Below, one piece after another: positions 27,970-51,785 of a DNA stretch of 64,000 bases; within the stretch, counting starts at the first letter, position 1; each line of letters starts with the position of its first letter. The notes under the pieces are model-generated. The model saw nothing but the letters and a program-made list of their open reading frames with translations, did not search any database and was not told where the DNA came from. Origin of the DNA: Chitinophaga pinensis (GTDB lineage Bacteria > Bacteroidota > Bacteroidia > 2-12-FULL-35-15); contig CAMCYR010000006.1 of the NCBI GenBank assembly GCA_945885475.1, positions 1-64,000 on the forward strand. Reading direction: 5' to 3'. The position numbers and the translations under genes were made by a program.

Positions 27970-28466
27970 CATTTATACTTCAAATTTTTTTCTTTTCCCT
28001 AACCACCAACCACCAACCACCAACCACCCAATTACCCCATCACTCCATCACCCCATCACCAATCACCAATTACCCAATCACCCCATCACCAATTACCCAT
28101 CACCCCATCACCACTCACCTCATCACCAATCACCCATCACCAATCACCAATCACCCATCACCAATCACCCATCACCAATTACCCAATCACCTCATCACTA
28201 ATCACCCATCACCAATCACCAATTACCCCATCAACAATTACCTCATCACCTAATCACCAATCACCTCATCACCCATCACCCATCACCTCATTACCCATAA
28301 CCTCATCACTAATCACCCATCACCAATTACCCCATCACCTCATCACCAATCACCTCATCACCAATCACCAATCACCTCATCACCAATCACCAATCACCAA
28401 TCACCTCATCACCAATTACCCATTACCTCATCACCAATTACCAATCACTCAATCACTTTTTCTAAT
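27970..28466. repeat. G-free (+ strand) degenerate short tandem repeat, units like ATCACC / AATCACC / AATTACCC
   Basis: Direct reading: no G on + strand over ~497 nt; unit length varies ~6-9 nt; lies between purH and mreB. Confidence 0.9.
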
Positions 28467-47960: not shown

Positions 47961-49229
47961 TTATAAAGCACCTTTTAAAATTTCTCCGAACCGGTAGACA
48001 TCTTCAAACGAATTATATAAGGGAACAGGTGCACAACGAATAACGTTTGGTTCCCGCCAATCCGAAATAATTCCCGCTTCGCTTAGTTTATTAAAAAGTT
48101 CTTTCCCTCTTCCGTGCGCAACGATCGATAGTTGACAACCTCTTTGCTTTTTATCACGTGGTGTAATAATTTCTAATTTTTTATCCAGTGCTGTATTGAT
48201 ATCGTCAACAATAAATTCCAAATATCCGGTAAGTTTTTCTGCTTTTGCAACCAATGCATCCATCCCTACCTCTTCAAAAATATCTATAGATGCTTTGTGC
48301 GCAGCCATTGATAGAACAGGTGCATTGCTCATTTGCCATGCTTCTGCTGTAGACATCGGAATAAATCCTTTTTCCATTTTAAAGCGGGAATCTTTATCAT
48401 GTCCCCACCATCCTGCAAATCGAATGATCTCCGGTTTGTTCAAATGACGTTCGTTTATAAAAACTCCGGAAACCCCACCCGGGCCCGAATTCATGTATTT
48501 GTAACTGCACCAGCAGGCGAAGTCGACATCCCAGTCATGTAGTTCAAGTTTGATGTTTCCCGCAGCATGCGCCAGGTCAAAACCAACCAATGCTCCGGCT
48601 TTATGCCCGGCTTCGGTGATTCCTTTCATATCAAACACTTGTCCGTTATAATAGTTCACGCCTCCGATCAAAATTGTTGCAATGGAATCTTTATTTTTTT
48701 CGATCGCCGCCAAAATATCTTCGTGGCGGATGCAAACTTCACCTTCTCTTGGAAAAACTTCTATAATCGCATTTTCAGGATCCAAGCCATGAAATTTTAC
48801 CTGCGACTCCAACGCATATTGGTCGGAGGGAAATGCTTTTGCTTCACATAGTATTTTATAACGTGTTTTTGTGGGACGGTAAAAGCTAACCAAAAGCAAA
48901 TGCAGATTCACCGTAAGCTGGTTCATTGCAACCACTTCTTCGGGTTTTGCGCCCACAATTTTAGAAAGTGGAATAGCGAATTGTTCGTGATAAGGCATCC
49001 AGGGATTGCGTGCATGAAAGTGTCCTTCTACACCATATACAGCCCAATCCTCTAATTCATTCAATACATAATCCTGTGTGGCTTTGGGTTGCAATCCTAG
49101 GGAATTTCCTGTAAAATAGACTGTTTCACGTCCATGCATCATGGGGAAATAAAATTTCTCGCGATAATTTTTTAAGGGATCGTTTGTATCTTGTTGTTTG
49201 GCGTATTCAATAGTGTTTTCGTATTTCAT
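47961..49229 (-). CDS. kynU: kynureninase
   Basis: [57 protein letters not shown]. Confidence 0.96.
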
Positions 49230-49775
49230 GGAGCGTTATCGGTTTTTTCTCGCAGAGACGCAGAGTTCGCTGAGCTGTCTGTTGCTTATTGGTTTTTTAC
49301 GTACTAAATGTTGTTTGTCGTATGCAATAGTGTTTTCGTATTTCATTGAGCGTTATCGGTTTTTTCTCGCAGAGACGGAGAGTTCGCTGAGCTGTGCACT
49401 GGTTATTGGTTTTTTACTTACTAAATGTTGTTTGGCGTATTCAATAGTTTTTTCGTATTTCATGGAGCGTTATCGGTTTTTTCTCGCAGAGACGGAGAGT
49501 TGTCTGTTGCTTATTGGTTTTTTACGTACTAAATGTTGTTTGTCGTATGCAATAGTGTTTTCGTATTTCATTGAGCGTTATCGGTTTTTTCTCGCAGAGA
49601 CGGAGAGTTCGCTGAGCTGTCTGTTGCTTATTGGTTTTTTACGTACTAAATGTTGTTTGTCGTTTGCAATAGTGTTTTCGTATTTCATGGAGCGTTATCG
49701 GTTTTTTCTCGCAGAGACGCAGAGTTCGCTGAGCTGTGCACTGGTTATTGGTTTTTTACGTAATAAATGTTTTTG
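49199..49775. repeat. tandem array A: 5 units of 117/117/108/117/~117 bp, each carrying a copy of the kynU start region plus TCTGCGTCTCTGCGAGAAA core
   Basis: Minus-strand ATGAAATACGAAAAcACTATT occurs with start codons at 49229 (real kynU), 49346, 49463, 49571, 49688. Confidence 0.93.
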
Positions 49776-49789
49776 GAGACGCAGTAGTT

Positions 49790-50167
49790 TTAGAAGTTGT
49801 TTACTATTCTTACTATTCCATCTTTTACTAGATTCACATTAAAGTTTACTAATAATCCTACCTTCTTGTCTGTTAATTTTAAATAAGTCAATAGTTGTTT
49901 GTGGTGAACTGGTGCTAGTGCTTCAACTGATTTTATTTCGACAATAACTTTATCTTCCACGATAATATCAGCTCTAAATCCAATATCCATTTTATTACCA
50001 TCATAAAATACTTCAATCCCTTCTTGTCTCTTAAAATTTAAGTTTCTCTTTTTTAATTCATAACAGATTACTTCTTCATAAATACTTTCCAATAATCCTG
50101 GACCAAGCCTTGAATGAATTTTTATAAATATATCAATAAGCGCTTCTGTAATATCATTTTCCTTCAT
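49790..50167 (-). CDS. GxxExxY protein (PD-(D/E)XK nuclease-like)
   Basis: GPGLLESIYEEVICYELKKRNLNFKRQ (GxxExxY) and RADIIVEDKVIVEIKSVEAL (D...ExK). Confidence 0.92.
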   Translation of the reverse strand: MKENDITEALIDIFIKIHSRLGPGLLESIYEEVICYELKKRNLNFKRQEGIEVFYDGNKMDIGFRADIIVEDKVIVEIKSVEALAPVHHKQLLTYLKLTDKKVGLLVNFNVNLVKDGIVRIVNNF

Positions 50168-50458
50168 AAATTTTTTTTAATATAGCTCAGCGAACTCAGC
50201 GAACTCAGCGCCTCTGAGAGAAATTTTTTCGCTGCATATATTGCATCCAATAACCGCTAATATAATCTCATTTCCCTTCATAAATTTTTTTTAATATAGC
50301 ACAGCGAACTCTGCGTCTCTGCGAGAAATTTTTTCGCTGCATATATTGCATCCAATAACCGCTCCTATAATCTCATTTCCCTTCATAAATTTTTTTTAAT
50401 ATAGCTCAGCGAACTCAGCGCCTCTGCGAGAAATTTTTTCACTGTGTATATTGCATCC
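50161..50458. repeat. tandem array B: ~3 units (114, 105 bp spacing) carrying a copy of the GxxExxY start region plus the same core in opposite orientation
   Basis: Minus-strand ATGAAGG(A/G)AAATGA start copies at 50167 (real), 50281, 50386; cores at 50184-50223, 50298-50328, 50403-50433. Confidence 0.92.
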
Positions 50459-50465
50459 AAAGATA

Positions 50466-50492: not shown

Positions 50493-51785
50493 ATGAAGAG
50501 AGAAAAATCAGAAGCTTTGTTCGAGAAAGCAAAAAAATATTTCCCTGGTGGTGTAAACAGCCCTGTGCGTGCATTTCGTTCCGTTGGCGGGACACCTTTA
50601 TTTATCCAAAAAGGCAAAGGTTCTCATATCTGGGATGCTGACGGAAACGAGTTCATCGATTTCTGCGGATCCTGGGGTCCTTTGATTTTAGGTCATGCAA
50701 ACGATAAGGTAGTAGATGCGATCAAAAGAACTGTGGAGAATGGAAGCTCATTTGGAGCGCCCACTGCACTGGAGAACGATTTGGCAGAATTGATCTTAAG
50801 TAATAATAAGTACATTAAGAAAATACGTTTTGTGAGTTCCGGAACGGAGGCCGTAATGAGCGCTATTCGTTTGGCTCGTGGGTTTACAAACCGTGATAAA
50901 ATTCTCAAATTTGAAGGTTGTTATCATGGACACTTGGACGCTTTATTAGTAAAAGCAGGATCAGGATTGGTTACTTTTGGAAATACATCATCAGCCGGTA
51001 TTCCAGAAAGTTTTGTGAATGAAACAATTGTTGTTTCTCTGAACAATGAAGCAGCCGTGAAACAAGCGTTTGCTGAATTTAAAGACCAGATTGCATGTGT
51101 GATCATTGAACCGATTCCGGCAAACAATGGCTTACTGTTGCAGCGGAAGGAATATTTGCAATTTCTTCGTGAGATCTGTACCGAAAATAAAACACTCCTC
51201 ATCTTTGATGAAGTAATCAATGGTTTCCGAGTAGGTTTTGATGGTGCTGCAGGATATTACGCTATCCAGCCTGATATTATCACCTATGGTAAAATTATCG
51301 GAGGTGGACTGCCTGTTGGTATGTATGGCGCTTCAGCGGATATTATGAGTCATATTTCCCCCGAAGGAAATGTATATCAGGCAGGAACATTGAGCGGAAA
51401 TCCGGTTGCGATGGCTGCCGGAATCGCACAATTGACCGAATGTTTAAAACCCGGTTTTTATGAGGAATTGGAAAGAAAGACACAGTTTTTAATTGCCGCC
51501 ATTTTTAGCAATCTAAAGTCTCAGATCACCAATCTTAAAATATTTTCTGTTGGCTCCATCTTTTGGATTGCTTTCACAGACAAGGAAGTAGTGCGCACTT
51601 CCGAAGAAATAGATGCCGATTCAATGAAACATTTCAAAATCCTTCACAAGGAATTATTGGAGCGTGGAATTTATCTCGGGCCATCGGGTTATGAAGTTGG
51701 ATTTGTATGTGAAGCACATACTGAAGAAGATCTTATAAAAACTGCGAAAGCTTTTGCTGAGGCATTGGAAATCGCAATGAAATAA
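50493..51785 (+). CDS. hemL: glutamate-1-semialdehyde 2,1-aminomutase
   Basis: FEKAKKYFPGGVNSPVRAFRSVGGTPLFIQKGKG; FVSSGTEAVMSAIRLARGFT; TYGKIIGGGLPVGMYG; start 50493 preferred over 50451, which precedes the promoter. Confidence 0.96.
   Translation: MKREKSEALFEKAKKYFPGGVNSPVRAFRSVGGTPLFIQKGKGSHIWDADGNEFIDFCGSWGPLILGHANDKVVDAIKRTVENGSSFGAPTALENDLAELILSNNKYIKKIRFVSSGTEAVMSAIRLARGFTNRDKILKFEGCYHGHLDALLVKAGSGLVTFGNTSSAGIPESFVNETIVVSLNNEAAVKQAFAEFKDQIACVIIEPIPANNGLLLQRKEYLQFLREICTENKTLLIFDEVINGFRVGFDGAAGYYAIQPDIITYGKIIGGGLPVGMYGASADIMSHISPEGNVYQAGTLSGNPVAMAAGIAQLTECLKPGFYEELERKTQFLIAAIFSNLKSQITNLKIFSVGSIFWIAFTDKEVVRTSEEIDADSMKHFKILHKELLERGIYLGPSGYEVGFVCEAHTEEDLIKTAKAFAEALEIAMK

Follow-up and report, generated by a model that had tools for sequence, protein, structure and literature searches.

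Upstream of two adjacent genes, encoding a kynureninase and a protein of the GxxExxY family, the beginnings of these very genes are repeated in tandem, together with a short sequence referred to here as the core (Table 1). This raises the question of whether the arrays, designated A and B, multiply gene starts by design, as was proposed in a sequence-only reading of the window (i.e., the whole 64-kb stretch of DNA that was analyzed), or whether the starts were copied along with something else.

Table 1. Positions of the genes, arrays, cores, start copies, and breakpoints between kynureninase and hemL in the window.
Feature	Position	Strand	Basis
Kynureninase gene, first 12 codons repeated in array A	47961..49229	-	
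Array A: five core copies, units of 117/117/108/117 bp, with kynureninase starts	49192..49775	+	
Array A, gene-side breakpoint microhomology TGTT	49192..49195	+	
Array A, element-side breakpoint microhomology TGTT	49768..49771	+	
GxxExxY gene (PF13366 / TIGR04256), predicted Cas4-like PD-(D/E)XK nuclease fold, 125 aa, intact	49790..50167	-	ORF, profile, and fold searches
True GxxExxY start (first 33 nt), which served as template for the copies	50135..50167	-	sequence comparison
GxxExxY start copy 1, 27/33 identical	50249..50281	-	sequence comparison
GxxExxY start copy 2, 28/33 identical	50354..50386	-	sequence comparison
Array B: three core copies, units of 105 + 114 bp, between the GxxExxY start and the hemL promoter region	50168..50460	-	
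Array B core (terminal inverted repeat) copy, 3 mismatches	50204..50220	-	
Array B core copy, exact	50309..50325	-	
Array B core copy, 2 mismatches, outermost, adjoins hemL	50414..50430	-	
Array B, gene-side breakpoint microhomology CAA	50134..50136	+	comparison with single-copy G003
Array B, hemL-side breakpoint microhomology CAA	50458..50460	+	comparison with single-copy G003
hemL-like glutamate-1-semialdehyde aminomutase gene, flanking the insertion site on the side opposite to kynureninase	50493..51785	+	name from sequence

Both arrays were detected by Tandem Repeats Finder, and the repeated pieces are inexact copies. The minus-strand copies of the GxxExxY start, which had been pointed out at positions 50281 and 50386, are real: 27 and 28 of their 33 nt agree with the beginning of the gene (true ATG at 50167, minus strand), while the best unrelated match on both strands of the 64-kb window reaches 21 of 33. 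The copy at 50281 indeed encodes MKGNEIILAVIGCNICSEKISLRGAEFAEFAELY*, with a TAA (50177) ending 9 nt before the true ATG, and the starts are spaced by 114 and 105 bp. Array A holds four copies of the kynureninase start (at 49346, 49463, 49571, and 49688), identical at 33–35 of 36 nt; the next best match to these 36 nt in the window is 23/36. The 9-bp difference in spacing, noticed earlier as a trait common to both arrays, is present (117/108 bp in A and 105/114 bp in B), but its cause lies in the core, one 9-bp TTCGCTGAG-type sub-repeat of which is missing (A) or extra (B). A complete scan of the 3.06-Mb genome revealed no further site of the window core (TTTCTCGCAGAGACGCAGAG, up to 3 mismatches), and the search for an exact gapped tandem-core pattern gave no match because the cores diverge.

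For the comparison within the genus, the region served as query against 36 genomes, and orthologous sites were read in 20 stretches. In many species (G035, G009, G027, G005) kynureninase and hemL are divergent neighbors, about 60 bp or somewhat more apart, which represents the empty site. In G003 and G017, a GxxExxY gene is located between them with one core per side, the two being mutually inverted, and in G030 the GxxExxY gene at this site is decayed; none of these three carries an array. Both element ends are expanded into arrays in the window species and in G031, and the copy numbers differ among the window species, G031, and G003. As both arrays occur in G031, a separately assembled relative (although its contigs break inside the arrays), an assembly artefact is unlikely. 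The single cores of G003 and G017, the decayed gene of G030, and the two-ended arrays of the window species and G031 are most simply read as an ancestral insertion with single cores, in which the arrays would have arisen later. The filled state is scattered on the kynureninase and hemL tree, which points to repeated gain or loss. On both flanks the element adjoins T-runs, where no clear target-site duplication is readable. The GxxExxY gene of G012 was ruled out as a case of the shared insertion, since it sits at the opposite end of kynureninase. Moreover, sites without GxxExxY in L074 (G013), L073 (G004), L076 (G014), and L078 (G007) contain short elements with inverted repeats whose cores belong to other types (CACTAAGG, CACGGAGG), so the site either is a repeated target or retains remnants.

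The breakpoints were located by comparison with G003. The unit of array B is bounded by two CAA trinucleotides, one in codons 11–12 of GxxExxY and the other in the hemL flank, and comprises between them the start codon, the 5' region, and the core; at its junction the gene sequence TCAATAAG and the flank TCCAAAG are joined into TCCAATAAG. In array A, the unit is bounded by two TGTT tetranucleotides, one within kynureninase and one within the element. Both arrays are tandem duplications of the terminal inverted repeat (TIR) of the GxxExxY element, i.e., of the core, with 3–4 nt shared at the ends. Taken alone, such microhomology is weak evidence. Minisatellites have head-to-tail units of about 10–100 bp or more in variable copy number, and the arrays conform to this.

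The whole is probably explained by tandem duplications, similar to those of minisatellites, that affected both ends of a single GxxExxY element, a reading in which we infer both the physical cause and the near neutrality. The element, a Cas4-like nuclease gene between TIRs, lies between kynureninase and hemL, and a segment of about 105–117 bp around each TIR was probably duplicated between microhomologies of 3–4 nt in the common ancestor of the window species and G031; because each TIR is located 18–19 bp from a start codon, this segment would have swept in the ribosome-binding region and the first codons. Further copies could have come from slippage or unequal exchange, with 9-bp steps supplied by the TIR sub-repeats, and the gene-proximal copy would leave the gene intact, so that the change may be tolerated and close to neutral. 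As the physical cause we favor instability of the TIR, with duplication by slippage or via microhomology. It should be stressed that three observations speak against slippage: both element ends are arrayed in one lineage and none in G003, G017, or G030, a higher degree of coordination than expected from rare, independent slippage events; in comparison with G003, the right TIR became left-like in the window species and G031; and about 20 nt in the junction of a second locus (L091) match neither flank, unlike in simple slippage.

Profile searches assigned the GxxExxY protein to TIGR04256 (144.9 bits vs. a cut-off of 35) and PF13366 (141.6 vs. 22). Residues D67, E77, K79, Q91, and Y95, invariant in 19 sequences, correspond to the conserved D...ExK and QxxxY of PD-(D/E)XK proteins of the Cas4/RecB type. 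The structure model (pLDDT 95) gave as best PDB fold matches SSO0001 (4ic1, E 1e-4), a Cas4 protein, and lambda-type exonucleases, with TM-scores of about 0.5; a profile search of PDB sequences found no match, and weak Cas4/CRISPR-associated matches were obtained in PADLOC and PHROGs. Based on fold and conserved residues, GxxExxY is predicted to be a Cas4/RecB-like PD-(D/E)XK nuclease.

Within the genus, almost all GxxExxY genes read are flanked by inverted, internally periodic repeats, as are most of those in the wider phylum; their type varies from locus to locus, and the two sides of one locus match. For 124 loci, the mean inverted score was 38.5, compared with 19.8 (sd 0.49) for permuted partners, i.e., 38 sd above the permuted pairing, and 103 of these loci exceeded the 95% level of control ORFs (the median in direct orientation was 19). 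Two properties of mobile elements are present: matching inverted repeats at both ends, and a kynureninase-hemL site which is empty, filled, or decayed among species. The family was found in 101 of the 197 Bacteroidota genomes sampled and in 36/36 of the genus, often in several copies. The literature searched (most subscription journals lay outside the search) names GxxExxY only in passing, and no description of it as flanked by paired inverted repeats was found there.

The closest known systems are REPtrons and TIRtrons, in which RAYT or TIRYT tyrosine transposase genes are flanked by REPs or TIRs (PMC3733652). As in those systems, a single small gene for a DNA-acting protein is placed between inverted repeats whose family varies by locus, solo palindromes of the same repeats occur elsewhere in the genomes, and there are repeat arrays. 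The enzymes differ (a Cas4-like PD-(D/E)XK nuclease of PF13366 here, HUH/tyrosine transposases there), and so do the repeats, since those of GxxExxY are periodic CGCAGAG/CACAGATT-type strings, while GTAG-tagged palindromes are a REPtron trait; no GTAG tag was seen by eye in the GxxExxY-flanking repeats of the genus. BrickBuilt of Porphyromonas gingivalis, a MITE with an internal minisatellite (PMC4596501), is likewise an intergenic sequence of Bacteroidota with inverted-repeat ends and tandem units of variable copy number, but these units are 23 nt long and internal, and it has no gene, nuclease, or gene starts or ends within the units. With Cas4, lambda exonuclease, and RecB-type nucleases GxxExxY shares the predicted fold, the invariant catalytic motif, and the weak Cas4 profile matches; unlike Cas4, it is a lone gene between inverted repeats and has 125 aa, compared with about 200 aa of the Cas4 match. 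No CRISPR genes were seen beside it.

That a shared generating process lies behind the two arrays, as had been argued from their resemblance, agrees with the other loci: arrays of the same kind are present at further GxxExxY element ends, including L091 of the same genome and the orthologous element of G015, and repeated starts also occur at L091 and in G015, G014, G210, and G034. In G015, the start copy is located at the same element end (alignment score 50 vs. a maximum of 35 in 2000 shuffles) and is apparently an independent event, because it extends deeper into the gene, to about codon 22. L091 (G000, contig C13), the second GxxExxY locus, has another core type (CACAGATTACGCAGATT) and contains six units of about 145 bp, in which the GxxExxY end and the beginning of the lipoprotein gene that follows are repeated; the orthologue of this locus in G027 has a single unit. 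The units of L091 (L091:1845-2695, i.e., G000:C13 27599-28449) alternate between two types, and an inverted core forms part of the predicted lipoprotein N-terminus (MKKPFYIDITKNNLCKSVQSVVKITLLIAASCFYYAC...). In L147 (G014), the units of an 84-bp array include an ATG with some five codons that, by eye, look like the start of the next gene, and GxxExxY starts are repeated at 265 bp in L165 (G210) and at 105/210 bp in L189 (G034). Repeated gene ends were observed in L090/L091, L200, and L204. In an automatic scan covering 664 genes, four start cases and four end cases emerged, of which one start case (L086) was spurious and was dropped, the match being located at the 3' end of a gene. The largest array seen was that of L161 (G198), with a 47-bp TIR unit in 16.7 and 4.1 copies on the two sides of the GxxExxY gene.

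Within 250 bp of 127 GxxExxY genes there were 16 tandem arrays of period at least 40, vs. one elsewhere in the same loci. Given 26.6 kb of non-coding DNA near GxxExxY and 35.6 kb elsewhere in the loci, the excess is about twenty-fold by count, and about nine-fold against a 456-kb sample of the own genome (where some 60 kb of non-coding DNA holds four arrays not near GxxExxY); these ratios are approximate, as the 250-bp cut-off was chosen post hoc and the loci are the best-scoring, hence non-random, family members. The own-genome survey comprised this sample and complete scans for the window core and the GxxExxY family. The TIR motif is located within nearly all array units, and GxxExxY element ends appear to be hotspots of tandem arrays.

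The exchange of sequence between arrays and genes may also run backwards. Codon 8 of kynureninase is GCA in G031, as in the array copies of both species, and GAA in the window species and G003, which is consistent with an exchange from an array copy into the true start of G031, although some other species have no E at codon 8 either. A wider, tentative possibility is that GxxExxY genes are central to an undescribed but widespread class of mobile or self-maintaining elements that rely on a nuclease, each with its own co-varying pair of inverted repeats, and that the nuclease acts on these ends, giving rise to arrays and solo palindromes that shuffle starts and ends of neighboring genes, with exchange back into the true gene as at codon 8. 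Locus-specific, co-varying inverted repeats around a Cas4-like nuclease provide a testable handle on the role of the family; the element ends repeatedly make extra start regions upstream of host genes, and the arrays may feed changes back into these genes.

It is rather unlikely, in our opinion, that the GxxExxY nuclease itself causes the duplications, by nicking or cutting the TIRs, so that fill-in and joining of the offset breaks duplicate what lies between and the arrays mark element activity. Its Cas4/lambda-exonuclease-like fold with the five invariant residues, the strong concentration of arrays at the TIRs of the gene, the expansion of both ends in one lineage, and the filler-like DNA in the L091 junction would all fit. 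However, Cas4/RecB-like proteins are mostly exonucleases, about 90% of GxxExxY loci are without an array, and the internal periodicity of the TIRs alone would promote slippage. In L122 and L137, moreover, the stretches read contain cores with arrays but no GxxExxY gene, which argues that the gene is not required in cis. Small tandem duplications arising from breaks with overhangs are known in mammalian cells, where Pol alpha-primase/CST is involved (PMC8355091); the outcome, a short direct tandem duplication, is alike, but the case described here is bacterial.

Much less probable, and already disfavored, are ordinary random intergenic duplications unrelated to the element, with the two adjacent cases as a coincidence: the own-genome sample does contain some further non-coding arrays, including two (L241, L253) associated with another palindromic repeat, but the 16:1 distribution, the TIR motif in nearly all units, and the recurrence in G015 and at the second locus of the same genome stand against this.

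Coming back to duplication at the element ends as the preferred explanation, the proposal of one design (core, ribosome-binding region, start codon, and about 11 codons) did not survive. In the automatic scan, gene ends were copied as often as starts; the gene portion is not fixed but covers about 5, 11, 12, 22 or more codons; and unit length, supposed to be always 3n, is so in only 5 of 18 other arrays. Geometry alone would favor the inclusion of starts, since at the given core-to-ATG distance a core-containing unit of about 110 bp would take in the ATG with a probability of 0.73–0.76 (uniform placement), i.e., about three times in four. The copies in the window differ from the true starts by 18 codon changes, 18 nonsynonymous and 0 synonymous, which are not independent events, as changes are shared between copies. 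Because gene ends are copied too, 3n units are in the minority, the 9-bp steps stem from a core sub-repeat, and all changes are nonsynonymous, there is no start design, and no function of the start copies is supported. Least credible of all is selection for the repeated starts, with upstream RBS-ATG mini-ORFs that would encode leader peptides for kynureninase and GxxExxY or regulate their translation: every copy retains its ATG, followed by an in-frame stop just ahead of the next one, and the window units are 3n, but the nonsynonymous changes and the fact that 3n is not general led us to reject a leader-peptide function, gene ends are duplicated as well, and relatives have the same genes without the copies. 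The arrays explain the spurious repeated mini-ORFs that annotation pipelines may call.

Repeats of other kinds were also observed. The arrays at L241:15141-15402 and L253:1873-2077 of the own genome consist of a different palindromic repeat (AATCCCCCTTA...AAGGGGGAAT), which suggests that other palindromic elements here also expand. In the window itself, positions 28004-28456, between purH-like and mreB-like genes, contain about 60 copies of a degenerate heptamer, CACCAAT/CACCCAT.
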